Shown here piece after piece: positions 45,447-54,654 of a stretch of DNA of 64,000 bases. Position numbers and translations under genes: made by a program. This stretch comes from Dictyoglomus sp. NZ13-RE01. Its GTDB lineage: Bacteria > Dictyoglomota > Dictyoglomia > Dictyoglomales > Dictyoglomaceae. The stretch is from assembly GCA_002878375.1 (NCBI GenBank), contig NIRF01000010.1, forward strand, positions 4,392-68,391, read 5' to 3'. The notes below the pieces were generated by a model. That model had not been told where the DNA came from. It worked only from the letters and a program-made list of their open reading frames with translations, and made no database searches. Each line of letters opens with the position of its first letter. Positions within the stretch are counted from its first letter, which is position 1.

Positions 45447-46343
45447 ATGAGTGAAATCTTAACAGAATCTATAAATCCAAATTCAAGAAATATAGATGAA
45501 AAAAGTACTGAAGAGATCCTAAGGATAATAAATGAGGAAGATAAAAAAGTCCCCTTAGCTGTTGAGAAAGAGATTCCAAAGATAGCAGAAGTTGTTGATG
45601 AGATTGTAAAAAGAATTGAAAAAGGGGGAAGAGTATTTTATGTAGGAGCAGGGACCAGTGGAAGATTAGGAGTGCTTGACGCATCAGAAATTCCTCCCAC
45701 CTATGGAGCGGATCCTAACCTTTTCCAGGGGATAATAGCAGGAGGAGATTTTGCTTTAAGATTTTCCGTAGAAGGGATAGAGGATGATGAGGAGAGAGGG
45801 AGAAGGGATTTAGAGGAAAAGGGCATAAATGAGAAGGATACTGTCATTGGTATAGCTGCAAGCGGTAAAACACCATATGTTCTTTCCGCACTGAAATTTG
45901 CAAAGGAGAAAGGTGCTTTTACAGTTGGTATTGTTTGTAATGAGAATACTCCCATGGAAAAGATCTGTGATAAAACTATTAAAGCCTTGGTGGGGCCAGA
46001 GGTAATTGCCGGCTCCACAAGAATGAAGGCTGGAACAGCCCAAAAACTTATTCTCAACATGATATCTACAAGCGTTATGATAAAATTAGGAAAAGTTTAT
46101 GATAATCTCATGGTAGATGTACAGGTATTAAATAAAAAATTAAAAGAAAGAGCAAAAAGGATATTAAATATAACATGTAATTTGGGGGAAAAGGAAGCAG
46201 AAGAAATATTAAAAAAGGCAAATAACAATGTAAAATTGGCAATAATAATGGCAAAATCAGGTGTAGACTATAACACCGCCAAAAATCTTTTAGAAAAACA
46301 CAAAGGTAGAATAAGGGATGTATTAAAAGAGATTGGGGGATAA
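45447..46343 (+). CDS. murQ: N-acetylmuramic acid 6-phosphate etherase
   Basis: This 298-residue cytosolic enzyme splits the lactyl ether of MurNAc 6-phosphate to GlcNAc 6-phosphate and lactate in cell-wall recycling. It shows TESINPNSRNIDEKS, a SIS-domain sugar-binding stretch VGAGTSGRLGVLDASEIPPTYG, and GPEVIAGSTRMKAGTAQK, all diagnostic of MurQ. No MurNAc phosphotransferase gene is adjacent. Its end forms a terminator with the end of the convergent beta-glucuronidase. Confidence 0.95.
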   Translation: MSEILTESINPNSRNIDEKSTEEILRIINEEDKKVPLAVEKEIPKIAEVVDEIVKRIEKGGRVFYVGAGTSGRLGVLDASEIPPTYGADPNLFQGIIAGGDFALRFSVEGIEDDEERGRRDLEEKGINEKDTVIGIAASGKTPYVLSALKFAKEKGAFTVGIVCNENTPMEKICDKTIKALVGPEVIAGSTRMKAGTAQKLILNMISTSVMIKLGKVYDNLMVDVQVLNKKLKERAKRILNITCNLGEKEAEEILKKANNNVKLAIIMAKSGVDYNTAKNLLEKHKGRIRDVLKEIGG

Positions 46344-46370
46344 ACCTACTTCCTCCCCCATCTTTCTTTT
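46334..46370. terminator. Shared terminator formed from two gene ends
   Basis: TGGGGGA (46334-46340) pairs with TCCCCCA (46354-46360) and both stop codons lie in or next to the loop. TCTTTCTTTT follows on the plus strand. Confidence 0.55.
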
Positions 46371-48118
46371 AAATAATGGGCTACAAGTTTTGGTTGTCTC
46401 TGTCTTGTAAATACTCCCTTTCTATTGCCCATAACCCTTCTTACTTCCTGCTTTGTGGCAAAATCCGCAAAATTCCATACATGCTCACCTATAATAAAAT
46501 CCAATCTATCTAAGACATTATTAAATCTTTTAATCATTTCTAATTGATACTCCTCAGAAAACATCTGGGGAGGGTCTGAATGAAACCCCGCTATGGTATC
46601 CGCTCCATACTCCGTTAAAAATACAGGCTTTTTATATCTCTCATACCACTTTTTTAAATCCTTCTCCAACTGAAACTCTATGATCTCTAAATTTCCAGGA
46701 TCTGTATACCAGGAGTAATACCTATTTACACATATAACATCTACGTATTTTGTTACCTTTGACTCAAAGGGATCCTTTTCATGGGGTGAAAAACAGTCCA
46801 CAATAGTAACAGGTCTTGTTGGATCCATCTTCTTTGTTTCTTCAATAACCCTTTTGAAGTAGTCCTCCGCTTCTTTTTCAAAAGATGCAGGCTCATTTGC
46901 CACACTCCACATTACTACAGAAGGATGATTCTTATCCCTATCAATTAGCTCCCTCATTACCTGAATATGGTATTTTAGTGTTTCCTCACTTATCCTCTCA
47001 GGACAGAAAGTCTTTTTGCTTCCCCACAAGTTTAATCCTACTGCTGGTGCCTCATCAATAATCAATATACCAAATTCATCCGCAAGATCCATTATCTCTT
47101 CTGCATAAGGGTAGTGGGAAGTTCTAAAGGAATTAGCATTTATCCATTTTAGAAGATAAAAATCCTTTAGGGCAATAACAGGATCATACCCTTTTCCCCT
47201 TATATCCGCATCCTCATGCTTTCCAAACCCCTTAAAATAAATAGGTTTACCATTTAACAGGAATTTACTCCCTTTTACCTCAACAGTTCTTATTCCCACC
47301 TTCAAAGAGTAGCAATCTTCCAAATTATCATTGAATAATTCCACTTTGAAGTTATAAAGATAGGGGTTTGAAGGCTCCCAAAACTTTGCATCCTCTACTA
47401 TTAAGGTCCCCCTTTCTCCCTCCATTTCTAAGATTTTTTCCCCTTTATCCCATAAGGATACTAAAATTTTTTCCGCCTTTCCTACTATCTTTACCTCGTA
47501 GTTTATGATCCCTTTTCTTTTCTCTATATCCGTTACAACTTTTATATCAGATATATAGTTTTGTGAGAGTGCATAAATATAGACAGGTCTATGAATTCCA
47601 GCATAGTTATAGAAATCAAAGTAGTACTCCTGAAATTTGTAATGGGGAGGATGGAAGGGATCATTAAGCTCAACCAACTCTCCAGGAGGAAGAAGAGTCC
47701 AATCCAGTATATTACTAACTGCAATAGTAACTCTATTTTCTCCTGAAAAGGAAACAAGGGAAGTTATTTCTCCCTCAAAGGGCAAAAATCCGCCTTTATG
47801 CTCAAAAGCCTTTCTTCCATTGATCCAAACAATAGCACTATGAGTAGCACTTCCAATCCTCAGAAAAATCCTCTTACCCTTCCAATGCTCCGGTATATAA
47901 AACTCCCTTTCATACCACACATACCCAATATGATCCCTAATTGATGGATCTTGGGTTATATCGTTGTAGCTTGATGGAACTGGCATAGGGATTGCATCTT
48001 CTAATGGTTTCTCATACCATCTCTCCTCTATCCCTCTATTACTCTTATCAATCTTAAATCTCCAAATACCAGATAAATTTTTCAACTCTCTCTTTTCATT
48101 CTCCTTAGGGTATAGCAT
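46346..48118 (-). CDS. uidA: Beta-glucuronidase, GH2 family
   Basis: This 590-residue enzyme closely follows the E. coli UidA layout: sugar-binding and immunoglobulin-like domains, then a barrel. It shows NSFRTSHYPYAEEIMDLADE, the acid/base in WSVANEPASFEKEAE, the nucleophile in FLTEYGADTIAGFH, and the end VWNFADFATKQEVRRVMGN followed by RKGVFTRQRQPK. The Asn-x-Lys pair that binds the glucuronic carboxylate is kept (NRK). There is no signal peptide, so it acts in the cytosol on imported glucuronides. It follows the UroD-like gene by 18 bases. Confidence 0.92.
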   Translation of the reverse strand: MLYPKENEKRELKNLSGIWRFKIDKSNRGIEERWYEKPLEDAIPMPVPSSYNDITQDPSIRDHIGYVWYEREFYIPEHWKGKRIFLRIGSATHSAIVWINGRKAFEHKGGFLPFEGEITSLVSFSGENRVTIAVSNILDWTLLPPGELVELNDPFHPPHYKFQEYYFDFYNYAGIHRPVYIYALSQNYISDIKVVTDIEKRKGIINYEVKIVGKAEKILVSLWDKGEKILEMEGERGTLIVEDAKFWEPSNPYLYNFKVELFNDNLEDCYSLKVGIRTVEVKGSKFLLNGKPIYFKGFGKHEDADIRGKGYDPVIALKDFYLLKWINANSFRTSHYPYAEEIMDLADEFGILIIDEAPAVGLNLWGSKKTFCPERISEETLKYHIQVMRELIDRDKNHPSVVMWSVANEPASFEKEAEDYFKRVIEETKKMDPTRPVTIVDCFSPHEKDPFESKVTKYVDVICVNRYYSWYTDPGNLEIIEFQLEKDLKKWYERYKKPVFLTEYGADTIAGFHSDPPQMFSEEYQLEMIKRFNNVLDRLDFIIGEHVWNFADFATKQEVRRVMGNRKGVFTRQRQPKLVAHYLKERWGRK

Positions 48119-48136
48119 AAGGTTTCCCTCCTATAA

Positions 48137-49231
48137 TTAAAGTCTACAGAATTTATCTACTGCCCACATATAAAGCTTAATATTTTCCAAAGGAGTTCCT
48201 GAAGCTACACTGCCCGCAGTACACTCTACAAAATTTCCATCCCCTCCTAAACACTCCATATCCCTTTTTACAATACTAATAATCTCCTCATAGGTACCAT
48301 TTCTTAATGTAAAGGGAGGCATCTGTCCATAAATCTTAGCCTTTGGCATTGCGGTTCTAATCTCCTTAGGATGAATCTCAGGTCCAAAGTTCACCTCATT
48401 TATTCCTAAGTCATTTAATATGCCCATTAAGTGTTTCATATTACTATCGGAGTGCTGATATCTTAAGTGATGAGGAAGAGGAGCAAACTCCTTGAATATC
48501 CTTTCTAAAAAGGGAGCACAAAACTTCAAATATTTCTTTGGAGGAAACAAAAAACAATTATCATCCATAATAGAAAAACCATACTCCTGGTTTTTTGTTG
48601 CCTTTCTCAATACTCTGCAGTACTCAATCAATTTTTCACATAAAACATTGTAAAATTCTAAGAGCAATTCCTCCTCTTCCATCATAAAAATGCATAAGTT
48701 TTCTGTTCCTAAAATGCTCGTAGCTAAAGTAGCAGGACCTCTACTTGAGCTTCCCAGTTTAATCTTTTTCCCTGTCTCCTTCTCATAAAGTTCCTTTTTC
48801 TCATAAAAATCCTCTGGAAGAGCACATTCTTCCATATTAACCTTTTCCATTTTCTTTATCAATTCTTTCACATCATCAATATCTCTAACTTCGGAAACAA
48901 GCCAAGGAGTCCCTCCCTCTGTTAACACATACTTTGCTCCCATTAGTACCTCAAAACGGTTGGGAGATGGAGGTTCTACAGGATCTTCTGGATAAAATTT
49001 TCTGCCCAATGCTTTTTCCAAAATTTGATTTGCCCTTTTATGGCAATCCAATCTATAGTTATAGTCAGTATAATATCTTATCGTGGATTCAATATCTATT
49101 AATTCAAAAAGGAAATGGTCATCAAGCCAATAAAAAATAGGAATCCTGGTTTTATTTTGAAAATTCCTTAAACAGTAATCGTTTTCTTCCCAAAACTCTT
49201 TTAGGTCAAAATTTTCAAGATCTATTTTCAT
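48137..49231 (-). CDS. Uroporphyrinogen decarboxylase-family protein
   Basis: This 364-residue protein has the UroD/MtaA-type barrel: GPATLATSILGTENLCIFMM, DDNCFLFPPKKYLKFCAPFLERIF, HSDSNMKHLMGILNDLGINEVNFGPEI and a GDGNFVECTAGS stretch. Members include methyltransferases for methylcobamide and O-demethylases as well as true UroD; divergence and lack of haem genes nearby argue against HemE. It is upstream of the beta-glucuronidase in the same operon; the connection is unknown. No strong ribosome site precedes the ATG; TATCAT lies 7 bases upstream, so it may be leaderless. Confidence 0.7.
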   Translation of the reverse strand: MKIDLENFDLKEFWEENDYCLRNFQNKTRIPIFYWLDDHFLFELIDIESTIRYYTDYNYRLDCHKRANQILEKALGRKFYPEDPVEPPSPNRFEVLMGAKYVLTEGGTPWLVSEVRDIDDVKELIKKMEKVNMEECALPEDFYEKKELYEKETGKKIKLGSSSRGPATLATSILGTENLCIFMMEEEELLLEFYNVLCEKLIEYCRVLRKATKNQEYGFSIMDDNCFLFPPKKYLKFCAPFLERIFKEFAPLPHHLRYQHSDSNMKHLMGILNDLGINEVNFGPEIHPKEIRTAMPKAKIYGQMPPFTLRNGTYEEIISIVKRDMECLGGDGNFVECTAGSVASGTPLENIKLYMWAVDKFCRL

Positions 49232-49374
49232 AGGATTAATGATAACATATAAGAAATTTTGGTGTAAAGAGAAGAACTTTCCATTAGTAAATTAACTTTT
49301 TTGTTCATAAAAATCTTTTCCATTGATATAATATAAAAAGATAGTTTTTAAAACAAACAAAAGGAGGATTTGTT

Positions 49375-50070
49375 ATGTACAATGTGCTTATCACAGGTGC
49401 CTCAAAGGGTTTAGGTTTTTCCCTCACAAGGATATATCTTGAAAGAGGTCATAAAGTTATTGCCACTTATAGACAGAATTTAGAGTATTTAGAGGAGATA
49501 AAGGATAAATATGAGAATCTGATATTGTATCCCATGGATGTAGCCTCTGAGGAGTCTGTGAGAACCGCCTATAATTTTATAAGCAGTAAAGTGCCTGCCA
49601 TAGATATACTCATAAACAATGCAGCGATATATATTGAGGATAGAACAAGGACCATAGAAAATATAGATATTGATAGAGTGGTTTGGACTCTTAATGTAAA
49701 TGCAGTGGGACCTCTTAGAGTACTAAAGTATTTCTATCCTTTAGTGGAAAAGGGGAATAAAAAGCTCATAATAAATGTATCATCTGAGGCAGGAAGTATA
49801 GGAAACTGCTGGAGAGATAGGGAGTATGGATACTGCATGTCAAAATCCGCTCTGAATATGGCATCCGCCATATTACAAAATTATGGAAAGGAGAAAAACA
49901 TTAAGGTCCTTGTAATACATCCAGGATGGATGAGAACCGATATGGGTGGAAAAGATGCAGATATCTCACCCGATGAGGCAGGGGAAGGCATATATTCTTT
50001 GTCTATGAAGGATTGGAAGATCGATAAAGATATTTATATGGATTACAAAGGAAATAAAATGCCCTGGTAA
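49375..50070 (+). CDS. Short-chain dehydrogenase/reductase
   Basis: This 231-residue Rossmann-fold oxidoreductase has the TGASKGLGFSLTR cofactor motif, NNAAIY, and catalytic Ser in NVSSEAGS with YGYCMSKSAL (Tyr-x3-Lys). It resembles csgA/sniffer-type SDRs. AGGAGG precedes the ATG. The GH20 gene starts 18 bases after it, so the two are co-transcribed; the substrate may be a sugar or ketone but is not known. Confidence 0.85.
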   Translation: MYNVLITGASKGLGFSLTRIYLERGHKVIATYRQNLEYLEEIKDKYENLILYPMDVASEESVRTAYNFISSKVPAIDILINNAAIYIEDRTRTIENIDIDRVVWTLNVNAVGPLRVLKYFYPLVEKGNKKLIINVSSEAGSIGNCWRDREYGYCMSKSALNMASAILQNYGKEKNIKVLVIHPGWMRTDMGGKDADISPDEAGEGIYSLSMKDWKIDKDIYMDYKGNKMPW

Positions 50071-50088
50071 AAAAGGGAGGTATTTTTT

Positions 50089-51813
50089 ATGAGTGAAAGA
50101 ATTTACATTGTTCCTGAGCCAAAAAGGATGAGTTTTTCTGGAAGATGGTTTCCCTTTGATGGCTTTGAAAATTTACCAGATTTTATCTCAAGGGAGTTTA
50201 ATATTCCAAAAGGAAGCTGGAGAATTGAAAAGATTGATAGAGAAGGGATAGGAGTAGAAATAAAGGAAAAAATTGTGAATATATGGGGAAACGAACATAT
50301 TTGCTATGCTACTCTCATTCAAATCCTAATGCAAAAAAAGAATATAATGCCTGAGGTAGAGATTGAGGAGGAATTTTCATTCTCCTTTAGAGGATACCAC
50401 TTGGATATTGCAAGAGGAGGAGTACCAAAGGTAGAAACCCTAAAGAACTTACTAAAATGGCTCTTTTTATTAAAATATAACTATTTTGCGATATACTTTG
50501 AAGATCTTTTCCCATGGAGAAAATATCCACAAATTGGAAGATTAAGAGGAAGAATGACGGAAGAAGAGCTAAAAGAGGTCATATATTTTGGGAAAAATCT
50601 TGGGATAGAGGTTTTTCCATCCTTGGAGCTTTGTGGACATATGGAGCATATCTTATCTCTTCCCGACTTTAGGACCTTTAGTGAGTGGCATAGACCCCAA
50701 GAGGGATGTCTAAACGTTTCCAATGAATCAGCAAGATCCTTTGCCTATGACCTATTGAAAGAAGTTTTAGATTTCTTCCCATCAAAGTACATATTAATAG
50801 GGGGAGATGAAACCTGGGCTTTGGGAAGAGGAAGGAGCCTGGATAAAAAAGGTATTTTTGAGGGACCATCCCTTTATGAGATGCATCATAGAAACATGGT
50901 AAATATTGTGAAGGAGAAAAATAAGGAGCCCATCCTATGGGGAGATATGCTTACAGGTATGTATCTCACAGAAGAGGAGAGAGAAAGATGGAAGGTGGCT
51001 TTAGAGAGCGAAATATGGGATGAGGTGATAATCGCCAATTGGGACTATAGTGCTAACTCCATAGAGCATTTTAGAAATAAGATAAATCTATTTGGGAAAA
51101 GAAAGGCAAAGGAGCTTGCATGTCCAGGGCTTGCCAACTGGAATAGGTATTATCCAAACTTTGATATGGCACTAACAAACTTGAAAAACTTCTTGCTCCC
51201 TGCAAAGGAGGAAAAACTGCCAGGTTTTCTGGTTACTGCCTGGGGAGATGATGGGGAGGAGTGTTTATTCTCCTTCTTAGACCCTCTAATTCTTGCCAGC
51301 ATGGAAATAGCGGAAGGGGATGGAAACTGGGAGGATAAATGGGTTGCCCTTACAGGTGAAGAGAAAGAAGTTTTAGATTTAAGAAAGGATTTTGGAAATA
51401 CTATAATCTCAGAAACTTTAAAGCATGTTCTCTTTAAGGATTTTACCTATAGGTATTACACAGAAATAGTGGCAAGTAAAGCATCTGAGAGGAAGAAAAC
51501 AGGGGACTTTTGGATGGACTATTACATGAGCTTACTTGATAACTTAGCTAATAAGGAAAAATTAATAGAAATTTATGAAAAGGTGTATGAAAAGGCAAAC
51601 AAACCCAATCTTCCTGAGGATCTATCCTTAATAAGGGATCTAATTGGGATAGGTATTAATAGATTAAAGAATAAAAATAATTCAGCGGAGTTTATTGCAG
51701 TCTCCTATAAGTATAAAAAGCTATGGCTTTCTGAAAGGAAAGAAGAGGGCTTAGAAAATATTATTACAAGGTTTTGGGGCTCTGCAGGAAGGGCGGACTT
51801 AGAGATCATCTAA
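50089..51813 (+). CDS. GH20-like beta-N-acetylhexosaminidase
   Basis: This 574-residue protein has an N-terminal GH20b-like domain followed by the family 20 barrel: FRGYHLDIARGGVP, KYNYFAIYFEDLFPW, GIEVFPSLELCGHMEHIL, and the hallmark Asp-Glu pair in LIGGDETW. Such enzymes remove terminal N-acetylhexosamines by substrate-assisted catalysis. There is no signal peptide, so it is cytosolic. AAGGGAGG precedes the ATG. A role in amino-sugar recycling along with MurQ is a possible inference. Its end overlaps the convergent metallophosphoesterase by 15 bases. Confidence 0.8.
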   Translation: MSERIYIVPEPKRMSFSGRWFPFDGFENLPDFISREFNIPKGSWRIEKIDREGIGVEIKEKIVNIWGNEHICYATLIQILMQKKNIMPEVEIEEEFSFSFRGYHLDIARGGVPKVETLKNLLKWLFLLKYNYFAIYFEDLFPWRKYPQIGRLRGRMTEEELKEVIYFGKNLGIEVFPSLELCGHMEHILSLPDFRTFSEWHRPQEGCLNVSNESARSFAYDLLKEVLDFFPSKYILIGGDETWALGRGRSLDKKGIFEGPSLYEMHHRNMVNIVKEKNKEPILWGDMLTGMYLTEEERERWKVALESEIWDEVIIANWDYSANSIEHFRNKINLFGKRKAKELACPGLANWNRYYPNFDMALTNLKNFLLPAKEEKLPGFLVTAWGDDGEECLFSFLDPLILASMEIAEGDGNWEDKWVALTGEEKEVLDLRKDFGNTIISETLKHVLFKDFTYRYYTEIVASKASERKKTGDFWMDYYMSLLDNLANKEKLIEIYEKVYEKANKPNLPEDLSLIRDLIGIGINRLKNKNNSAEFIAVSYKYKKLWLSERKEEGLENIITRFWGSAGRADLEII

Positions 51814-52563
51814 AGTAATCTTCTTATCAATTATTTTATCGTTAACCTCTATAAGGATAAAGTGAGGATTTCCAGCCTCATAAATGGAGGTGTGGGGGAT
51901 ACTTCCCCCACTCCCCGATATTATGTATGTTACATTTCCAACCCTTTTCCTAAAATATAGATGAATATGTCCTGAGAATACATATTTTACTTTCTCTCTC
52001 TCAAAAAGATCCATGAGAATTTTTGTCTCTTTTAAATCGTGTCCTAAATAGGGATAAAATCTTCTGAAAAACTCCAATATAGGTGGAAGGACAAGTGGTC
52101 TATGCATAAAAACAAACTTAACTTTATCCCCCGAAGAACTTAAAACCTCCTTTAGCCAATTTATCTGCTCCTCTCCCAATCTTCCCAAAGCATTATTAAG
52201 GATGATGAATCTTGCATTCTCAAAGTCAAAATAATAATATAAAGGTCTTCCTGTAAAATCCTTGAAATTTTTACCACCATCCTTTGATATATCATTATTC
52301 CCAGGCACAAAATATATAGGGATTGGAGAAGAGGAGAATTGTTTCTTAACTAATTCAAGTTCATTTCCTTCCCAGCTATTTATAAAATCTCCTAAGTGAA
52401 TTATAAAATTAGCGGATGTGCTATATATTTTATTTAGAAGAAGAGCTGTTATGCTTGGTATTCCATCATAACCCTCACTATCCCCTATAACCGCAAACTC
52501 AAAGGCATAGGAGTAGGAAGTAAAAATCAAGCAAAATATAAAGATAATTAGAATAAATTTCAT
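51799..52563 (-). CDS. Secreted metallophosphoesterase (paralogue)
   Basis: This 254-residue calcineurin-like phosphoesterase has a signal peptide (about 1-20) and the motifs GDSEG, HLGDF, PGNND (Asn where His is usual) and FSGHIHLYF. Much of the sequence, such as ARFIILNNALGRLGEEQINW, is nearly identical to the protein at 40978-41730. The GNND change affects a conserved metal/catalytic His and may alter activity. Its ATG overlaps the stop of the upstream fusion gene. Confidence 0.82.
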   Translation of the reverse strand: MKFILIIFIFCLIFTSYSYAFEFAVIGDSEGYDGIPSITALLLNKIYSTSANFIIHLGDFINSWEGNELELVKKQFSSSPIPIYFVPGNNDISKDGGKNFKDFTGRPLYYYFDFENARFIILNNALGRLGEEQINWLKEVLSSSGDKVKFVFMHRPLVLPPILEFFRRFYPYLGHDLKETKILMDLFEREKVKYVFSGHIHLYFRKRVGNVTYIISGSGGSIPHTSIYEAGNPHFILIEVNDKIIDKKITLDDL

Positions 52564-54575
52564 AGCTCCTTAGGAACTAAATCTCCAATCCTTCCTTCTG
52601 CAAGAGCCATTACCTCATCCGCTCCACCGTAATAAACAAGGATCTCATCATTCTCATCCAATATTTCTGTAGAGTCTTTGTACTTTGGTACAACCCCACA
52701 GGTAAAGACTACTTCAGGCACCCATCCCTCTACCTCATAATATTCCTCAGGCTCTAAGATGGGATATGGAGAGCGATATATTACCTTTTCTGGATTTTCC
52801 AAAGAGGTAATCACTATACCTAAGGCATATGCCTTTTTCCCTTTCCATCTTCCTACCCCATGATAGATATGTAGCCATCCAAACTTAGTCTTTAGAGGGG
52901 GTGCTCCTGCCCCTATTTTCTCGCTATCCCAGTAGTTTGGACGTGGCATTAAAAAGGTTCTTCCCACAGTTGCTCCTTTATATGGGATCTCGTGGGTAAA
53001 TAAGATCTGCATATCAGGAGGAATCCTATGGATCAAAGCTACCTTCTGATGGTATAGTTCTGGGAAAAGATTTATAAAGTTTCCTTTATACTCCTTCTCT
53101 CCCAATTTTATATCATCTTTTCTCTCCTCAACGGGGAATAATACTGCATCCTTATCATCAAGCCCCTTAAAAATAGGACCATTTCTCTCCCAAACCCTTT
53201 TCCACTCCTCATAGGATTTGAATTCCTTTACACCCCTTAAAAAGTCATCTATATGGATCTTTGTTAGAGAAAGCTGAATTAAATCTCCATAGGATGTATA
53301 AGTCATATATAGATAGTTGTTTATTAGGTAGATTCTTGGGTCCTCTGTTCCTCCAAGCTCCCTTAACATGCCTAAGTGCTTCAACTGCCAATCCTTTCTT
53401 TTCTGCAATCTCTTAGGAGACTCATACTCTTCTTCTGGTCCAAAAATTGGGAAAGGAAGTCTTCCATCCTCCTTGTATCCATCTCTACTCCACCAAAGCC
53501 CAATTCTTGAGAAACCGTCCTCTCCCAATGCCCTGTAAAAAATATAGGTAACTCCGTTTAATCTAATGGCTCCTGCATTGTAAACTAATCTCTCCCAATG
53601 AATCTTTTCTCCCTTTACATCAATGGTCAAGTCGTATCTCGCCTTAAACAAGGGATTACCAGTAAAGCGCTTTAATTTTCCTCCTCGAGGATAACTCTTT
53701 GGATTTAGAATCTCATCAAAGATGTATAAAAACTGACTTCCTACCCTCTCTGGTGAATGTCCATAGGCAATACCTTGATAATACTTTAATATATCCTCTC
53801 TTTCTTCCCCATTTCTCAATAACTCTTTGACCTTATCTACTATGTTATCCTCATTATATCTTAGACTTTCAAGATACTCATATTTTAACCTGCCTACATC
53901 TCTTACAAGAACTACCGCTCCTCCTGTAATTACCTGATAAAAAAGTACAGGATATTCCTCCTCCTTCTGATACAAAATTACCAGTTTTGCAGATTGAGTA
54001 TACTTAACAATATCCTTCCAAGAGTTAACAACCCTAAAATCTATTTCAATATCCTTAAATTCCTCTCTTAACTTATTCTCCTCCTCCAAAGAAAAGCAAA
54101 TCCCCAATAAATATATGGATGGGTCCTCCTTCAAGATCTTTATTTTACCTTTTAACGGAGAATAATCACCTAAAAGAATAATAATATTTTTATCCTGGGG
54201 AAGATTAAGCTCCCTTACTATCTCCTCCTTAGAATACTCTTCTACACTATAATAGGGAATTTCTACTTTATAAGTTCTTTTATCCTCCGATGGAACAAAG
54301 GATATTATGGCGGACCAAATAGATGAATAAAGGGCACTATACTCTTCTCCCCAAGGATTTAGGAGAATCTTTTTTGAACTAAATTTTTCTAATTCTTTTA
54401 GAATATTATCCCAATCTAAATCTTTCTTCCCCAAAACCAAAAAAATACTGTATCCTTCTTCCCCCTTATAATCGAAAGAGACCTTAACTTTATACCCCTC
54501 TTTTTCCCACCAATCTAATATAGGTACCAGGTAATCTTCCTTACCTAAGACTAAAATTCCGCTCCCCTTCTCCAT
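52560..54575 (-). CDS. GT4-like domain fused to GH130 phosphorylase-like domain
   Basis: This roughly 671-residue protein joins two domains. Residues about 1-295 resemble a degenerate GT4 (GT-B) fold: an NIIILLGDYSPLKG stretch and a C-terminal helix where the E-x7-E motif becomes Glu208-x7-Gln216 (numbered from the GTG at 54581). Residues about 305-673 match GH130 beta-mannoside phosphorylases/hydrolases: RFTGNPLF, VYNAGAI, LGGTEDPRI, and the late YHGVG and YYGGAD. The GTG abuts GGAGGAG, so the ATG at 54575 with proper spacing is preferred. The enzyme may act on beta-mannosides; the GT-like part may bind rather than transfer. It overlaps the phosphoesterase gene by 4 bases. Confidence 0.75.
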   Translation of the reverse strand: MEKGSGILVLGKEDYLVPILDWWEKEGYKVKVSFDYKGEEGYSIFLVLGKKDLDWDNILKELEKFSSKKILLNPWGEEYSALYSSIWSAIISFVPSEDKRTYKVEIPYYSVEEYSKEEIVRELNLPQDKNIIILLGDYSPLKGKIKILKEDPSIYLLGICFSLEEENKLREEFKDIEIDFRVVNSWKDIVKYTQSAKLVILYQKEEEYPVLFYQVITGGAVVLVRDVGRLKYEYLESLRYNEDNIVDKVKELLRNGEEREDILKYYQGIAYGHSPERVGSQFLYIFDEILNPKSYPRGGKLKRFTGNPLFKARYDLTIDVKGEKIHWERLVYNAGAIRLNGVTYIFYRALGEDGFSRIGLWWSRDGYKEDGRLPFPIFGPEEEYESPKRLQKRKDWQLKHLGMLRELGGTEDPRIYLINNYLYMTYTSYGDLIQLSLTKIHIDDFLRGVKEFKSYEEWKRVWERNGPIFKGLDDKDAVLFPVEERKDDIKLGEKEYKGNFINLFPELYHQKVALIHRIPPDMQILFTHEIPYKGATVGRTFLMPRPNYWDSEKIGAGAPPLKTKFGWLHIYHGVGRWKGKKAYALGIVITSLENPEKVIYRSPYPILEPEEYYEVEGWVPEVVFTCGVVPKYKDSTEILDENDEILVYYGGADEVMALAEGRIGDLVPKEL

Positions 54576-54654
54576 AAACACTCCTCCAAAATTACATTTT
54601 TTACTAACCCACTAAATTATATGAAATGGCATAAATAAATCAAGGGGAAAATCT

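Follow-up and report, generated by a model that had tools for sequence, protein, structure and literature searches.

Computational analysis of the window, a 64,000-nucleotide stretch of the genome of Dictyoglomus sp. NZ13-RE01, identified a single gene in which a degenerate GT-B domain is fused to a GH130 domain; the product is probably a mannoside phosphorylase with a non-transferring, scaffold-like GT-B domain, derived from a joined gene pair and followed by decay of its GT-B part. The GH130 half would be a cytoplasmic GH130_NC beta-mannoside phosphorylase, acting most likely on beta-1,2-linked manno-oligosaccharides and yielding alpha-mannose 1-phosphate, and sugar transfer would no longer be performed by the N-terminal domain. 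Adjacent GT-B and GH130 genes, separate in Omnitrophota, would have been joined with their order unchanged; in Dictyoglomaceae the GT-B half would later have been stripped of its ligand-binding residues, with purifying selection still acting on its fold, and it would now serve most likely as a structural, oligomerising or substrate-holding domain.

The frame runs uninterrupted on the minus strand from an ATG at 54575 to a stop at 52560, encoding 671 aa (an alternative in-frame GTG start at 54581 would add two residues), with the GT-B domain in residues 1-292 and the GH130 domain in residues 298-671. An AlphaFold2 model calculated from an alignment of 31 homologues (mean pLDDT 90.4, pTM 0.90) shows both domains packed together at high confidence. 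A preliminary description of this DNA had called the gene a fusion of a glycosyltransferase with GH130 and had expected a GT-B fold in its N-terminal half; the intact frame, the two modelled folds and the same join in relatives bear out the former, and the structure prediction that it had proposed as a check, along with structural matches to GT-B enzymes, confirms the latter. Coordinates of the features discussed are collected in Table 1.

Table 1. Features of the fusion gene, its downstream neighbour and its permuted relatives (positions in the window unless a locus is named)
Feature	Position	Strand	Extent and basis
Fusion gene, degenerate GT-B domain + GH130 beta-mannoside phosphorylase (predicted)	52560..54575	minus	671 aa; ORF, AlphaFold2 model, shared architecture
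GT-B domain, two Rossmann halves, conserved pocket residues lost	53700..54575	minus	residues 1-292; VIA-align to PimA, column comparison
E-x7-Q, remnant at the GT4 E-x7-E site	53934..53960	minus	residues 206-214; sequence and relatives' alignment
GH130 five-bladed propeller, GH130_NC / beta-1,2-mannoside phosphorylase signature	52563..53684	minus	residues 298-671; PF04041, Teth514_1788 match
E411-D412 in GGTEDPR, GH130_NC-typical Glu and invariant catalytic Asp	53340..53345	minus	alignments; roles per PMC4599007
K475 in DDKDA, proposed counterpart of BT3780 Lys199 (beta-1,2 specificity)	53151..53153	minus	Teth alignment; role per PMC4599007
Disordered loop, site of the new termini in circularly permuted relatives	53082..53120	minus	residues 486-498; pLDDT <50 for 486-491
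Metallophosphoesterase gene, N-terminal hydrophobic stretch, 3' of the fusion	51799..52563	minus	PF00149 1.2e-15; 4-base overlap with the fusion
Permuted GT-B/GH130 protein	L061:4592-6865 and L026:991-3258		757 aa (L061) and 755 aa (L026)

Each feature of GH130 membership that we tested was found in the C-terminal half: PF04041 matched residues 405-666 (Pfam; E 7.6e-36, 124.1 bits against a gathering score of 26), superposition of the AlphaFold2 model revealed the five-bladed beta-propeller of solved GH130 members, and alignments showed the invariant catalytic Asp kept as D412 of GGTEDPR. VIA-align placed residues 298-668 on Teth514_1788 (PDB 9gph) with Z 38.5, rmsd 1.8, 282 residues aligned and 42% identity. 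These matches and the residue signature agree with the preliminary assignment of this half to a GH130 beta-mannoside phosphorylase-like enzyme. GH130_NC has been described by a Glu before the catalytic Asp and a Lys linked to beta-1,2 specificity (PMC4264767, PMC4599007), and the published criteria for the activity comprise the catalytic Asp, Lys199 for beta-1,2 linkages, basic residues for phosphate, and no signal peptide (PMC4599007). In alignment with Teth514_1788 and Teth514_1789, Glu (E411), not Tyr, precedes D412; K475 aligns with the Lys of NKDA in both, the two proteins being the intermediaries through which it is equated with BT3780 Lys199; and R517, K562 and H572, predicted by the same match to be the basic phosphate-side residues, coincide with basic positions of both phosphorylases, none being replaced by Glu. 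No signal peptide was seen by eye. Under the PMC4599007 criteria, the expected activity of this half is that of a cytoplasmic beta-1,2-mannoside phosphorylase. Its score against the NCBIfam beta-1,2-mannobiose phosphorylase equivalog NF052550 (146 bits against a cut-off of 450) marks it, as far as sequence goes, as a relative and not an equivalog, and is so far below the cut-off that the exact linkage and substrate can be given only tentatively. A second GH130 of the NZ13-RE01 genome (contig 6), in which alignment shows Tyr-Asp for Glu-Asp and Arg at the place of K475, is of another type.

The N-terminal half agrees with known glycosyltransferases in fold. Residues 5-293 superposed on PimA (2gej) with Z 21.1, 279 residues aligned and rmsd 3.2, and the domain matched BshA (6n1x) with Z 21.1 (both VIA-align). 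Scanned alone, the half scored below threshold for Pfam Glycos_transf_1 (E 0.0013; 18.8 bits against a cut-off of 26.4); none of its individually scored relatives reached the gathering score of Glycos_transf_1 or Glyco_transf_4, and wherever scores were shown the family fell short of Pfam and NCBIfam cut-offs, a canonical GT4 from the same loci scoring 117 bits (Pfam). A search of PDB chains with this half alone returned chance matches only, and when the better-preserved family was searched as a profile, a single weak match appeared, confined to the C-domain of a processive diacylglycerol beta-glucosyltransferase (E 9e-4). The motif E206-x7-Q214 is literally present, relatives having A-x7-Q or similar; its first Glu is not conserved (Asp in the congener L003, Ala in better-preserved relatives), and Gln occupies the second position in 12 of 13 relatives outside Dictyoglomaceae. 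Because neither E-x7-E nor the R..K donor-phosphate pair occurs in any family member seen in our alignments, a single Glu-to-Gln change is not the point. Of the preliminary view that this is a GT4-like domain whose second Glu became Gln, the motif itself and the degeneracy of the donor site stand; the Gln is a family trait, and GT4 membership is not supported, failing on motif and score while the fold agrees. We place the domain in an unnamed GT-B family without E-x7-E.

The state of the domain was gauged from columns conserved in at least 85% of 13 rows outside Dictyoglomaceae, a threshold that gives 48 columns, many of them polar (W, N, H, H, E, R, C, D, H, D, K, S, T, Q). Of these 48, 17 are retained in the window protein, where hardly any of the polar residues survive apart from the Gln, two Lys and a Ser. 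Deletions have removed W, N, H, G, E, R and C, and His128, Asp145, Lys278, Ser291 and Thr292 (L027 numbering) are replaced. Between genera of Dictyoglomaceae the GT-B half is 29% identical against 65% for the GH130 half, and within genera dN is 0.12 against 0.05 (L006/L007) and 0.21 against 0.09 (L003/L004). This roughly twofold faster evolution of the GT-B half relative to its partner is found solely in Dictyoglomaceae, GT-B and GH130 identities in other fusions being nearly equal (63/60, 59/62, 69/70 and 83/84%). The dN/dS of the GT-B half is about 0.1-0.25, well below 1, where NG86 values with dS >1 are rough and YN00 is unusable for saturated pairs. Since the family's own conserved polar residues are gone, glycan synthesis by the window domain is unlikely; since dN/dS is well below 1, the half must retain some function, and it is most likely a relic with a retained structural role. 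The coupling of glycan binding or synthesis to phosphorolysis that the preliminary description had envisaged thus becomes unlikely, as regards synthesis, for the window protein, and is possible only for better-preserved relatives, whose GT-B domain may bind or act on something and which might be active transferases.

Purifying selection on a fold whose catalytic features have been lost, and the high-confidence packing of both domains (pTM 0.90), also suit a narrower form of the scaffold reading, in which the GT-B domain would bind glycans or act allosterically and, with a retained acceptor site, would keep the oligosaccharide chain in place for the exo-acting phosphorylase, in the manner of a carbohydrate-binding module. 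We take this as a possibility without favouring it, for Teth514_1788, which has no GT-B domain, needs no such chain-holding.

All five other Dictyoglomaceae-type genomes in which the gene was found carry the same fusion, as four complete copies (L003, L004, L006, L007) and one truncated at a contig end. Identity is 75 and 71% in two congeners; the sister-genus proteins have 714-715 aa and come from single-contig genomes (the assemblies G003 and G004, both carrying the fusion, are of this kind), and the junction Y.HSPER.GSQF..IF...LNP is conserved across the two genera. Fusions also occur in two Thermotogota MAGs, L023 (contig scan) and L093 (phylum search), and in an Aenigmatarchaeota-labelled contig, L027 (contig scan), and a GT-B/GH130 module ends a giant Omnitrophota ORF in L025 (>3198 codons); a search of a plasmid collection retrieved GH130 parts only and no fusion. 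Homologues with the same domain order, for which the preliminary description had advised a search, are therefore found in Dictyoglomaceae and Thermotogota. It had also set against itself the case of homologues with the two parts as separate genes and a sequencing-caused join here: a separate adjacent pair does exist elsewhere, in Omnitrophota, and is what would lend colour to a sequencing or assembly error having joined two genes, whereas the identical join and junction recur in independent genomes of two genera and in Thermotogota MAGs. We reject such an artefact, the chance of which is practically nil.

In the separate pair, a free GT-B gene of ~355 codons immediately precedes a free GH130 gene of ~307 codons on one strand; the order is that of the fusion, and 3 to 179 bases lie between the two genes. 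It was found in seven Omnitrophota loci (L057-L060, L063, L066, L068), most of them continuing with a gene for glycogen phosphorylase (TIGR02093, 1169 bits) and having a divergent, GlgA-like GT4 gene beside them, and in L071, an Aenigmatarchaeota-labelled genome; because a search of that phylum found the GT-B family in one genome only, the label may be a binning error. A second GT-B paralogue (L064, L065, L067, L069, L070) does not adjoin GH130, and neither does a 356-aa member of the family, with the motif SSTLYQ, in Thermotoga-type genomes (L094-L100). In a maximum-likelihood tree of GH130 domains, the GH130s of the seven Omnitrophota pairs (100/98) are sister to the fused, permuted, giant-ORF and helix-type GH130s, this whole paired and fused/permuted group forming one clade (100/99) within which the canonical fusions group together (97/93); the paired GH130 of L071 is placed apart. 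Given the separate pair in the same order and its sister-clade position, the fusion is best explained by the joining of two neighbouring genes of one operon.

Two Poribacteria-type genomes (L061, L026) carry a circularly permuted counterpart, a single ORF with the order GH130 C-half, GT-B, GH130 N-half, the two proteins being 80% identical. Their new termini fall in the loop matching window residues 486-498, which is disordered in the window model. An AlphaFold2 model of the permuted protein (pLDDT 89.9, pTM 0.86) contains a GT-B insert that aligned with PimA over 333 residues (L061; VIA-align Z 30.1); as the VIA-align rows of this model were filled by the GT-B domain, closure of the propeller is read from the model together with half-propeller Foldseek matches, in which a propeller half matched Teth514_1788. 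A phosphomannomutase/phosphoglucomutase (PMM/PGM) gene starts 13 bases after the permuted gene (L061, G286), a position that fits use of the mannose 1-phosphate product.

Other arrangements were seen in passing. An Armatimonadota MAG encodes a permuted GH130 without a GT-B domain (L029:9455-10564) and, at L029:7908-9398, a GH130 followed within the same 496-aa ORF by a domain resembling sigma-70 region 4 (PF04545, E 6e-8), a join that, coming from a single MAG, could be due to chance or assembly. Giant Omnitrophota ORFs (L025:3-9596, >3198 codons; L062:2-10001, within an 8619-codon open frame) include, beside numerous other domains, the GT-B/GH130 module or a GH130 domain. GH130s of the same branch at L028:7221-9053 and L030:2620-4440 differ in their N-terminal part, whose ~265 aa look by eye like the remnant of a left-handed beta-helix sugar-nucleotide enzyme; Pfam gave no match to this part of L028.

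The constancy with which this GT-B family is paired with, or fused to, a single GH130 branch invites the alternative of a bifunctional turnover enzyme, a bacterial counterpart of the Leishmania mannogen cycle, whose GT-B domain would bind a nucleotide sugar and build a beta-mannoside for GH130 to phosphorolyse. Consistent with it are the storage-glycan setting of the Omnitrophota pair near glycogen phosphorylase and a GlgA-like GT4, the polar pocket conserved in members outside Dictyoglomaceae, and the structural comparison of the better-preserved domain, in which PimA with GDP-Man came first (Z 30.1, 333 residues aligned). We nevertheless consider it quite unlikely: no member has E-x7-E or the R..K pair, the window protein has lost the family-conserved polar residues and evolves at a raised rate, and PimA is a retaining enzyme, whereas formation of a beta-mannoside from GDP-alpha-Man requires inversion. 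Also tentative, and rather unlikely, is a wider proposal: the paired or fused GT-B family might be an unrecognised sugar-polymer synthase without E-x7-E, with pair, fusion and permuted fusion as variants of a single machine for the synthesis and phosphorolysis of a bacterial beta-mannan store; in Dictyoglomaceae its synthase half would have decayed to leave a phosphorylase with a GT-B scaffold.

Upstream of the fusion, the window has a divergent endonuclease III-like gene (by eye); co-transcription of the fusion with the downstream metallophosphoesterase gene is possible. This link is not conserved, other neighbours occurring in L072, L073 and L074, and the neighbourhood varies within Dictyoglomaceae. 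In G001, where a LacI-type regulator precedes it, the fusion faces an ABC transporter of the Opp type, an orthologue of which (48-56% identity) precedes the fusion in G367. In the window neither a transporter nor a mutase gene lies beside it, and the solute-binding protein of the G001 transporter is not beside the fusion in NZ13-RE01, where its best match (29%) is on another contig. By analogy with the Thermoanaerobacter cluster, for which processing of imported oligosaccharides was proposed (PMC4264767), the transporters of G001 and G367 suggest that imported oligosaccharides may be processed. Positions 45447-51813 of the window, beside the fusion, hold SIS-domain (MurNAc 6-phosphate etherase-like), GH2, URO-D-like and GH20 genes.

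One GH130 branch tied to a GT-B domain as neighbours, as a fusion and as a permuted fusion is a rare natural series that documents how a bifunctional-looking protein came together, was rearranged and in part decayed. Activity of the intact GT-B members would make them transferases of a new kind and point to a bacterial cycle of beta-mannan turnover; inactivity would make them a clear example of pseudo-glycosyltransferases retained as scaffolds.

To our knowledge, the characterised GH130 phosphorylases are single-domain enzymes, and in the literature searched, which left out most subscription journals, we found no GT/GH130 fusion, no Dictyoglomus GH130 and no permuted GH130. Among known systems, Teth514_1788 of Thermoanaerobacter (1,2-beta-oligomannan phosphorylase, GH130, PDB 9fj8/9gph) shares with the fusion the five-bladed propeller, EDPR, NKDA/DKDA and the basic residues on the phosphate side; unlike it, this single-domain protein of 303 aa has neither a GT-B domain nor the insertions that the fusion carries ahead of EDPR, behind FLRG and ahead of the last blade. 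Teth514_1789 (beta-1,2-mannobiose phosphorylase, GH130, PDB 7fip; Z 38.2 to the fusion) has the same catalytic signature but is free-standing, in a cluster that also contains ABC transporter genes and a GT4 gene (PMC4264767). PimA (GDP-Man alpha-mannosyltransferase, GT4, 2gej) has the GT-B fold in common with the N-terminal domain at 11-16% identity, with the GT4 E-x7-E and R..K that the fusion's family lacks. The Leishmania MTP enzymes (GT108, e.g. PDB 6q50, 6q4y) have a GH130-like propeller acting on beta-1,2-mannan, more distant from the fusion GH130 (Z ~21-22, 13-15% identity) than GH130 members are (Z 31-38), and unite synthesis and phosphorolysis of that storage polymer in one propeller (PMC8950772) without a GT-B domain; they are the closest functional parallel to the intact pairs, though not to the window protein.
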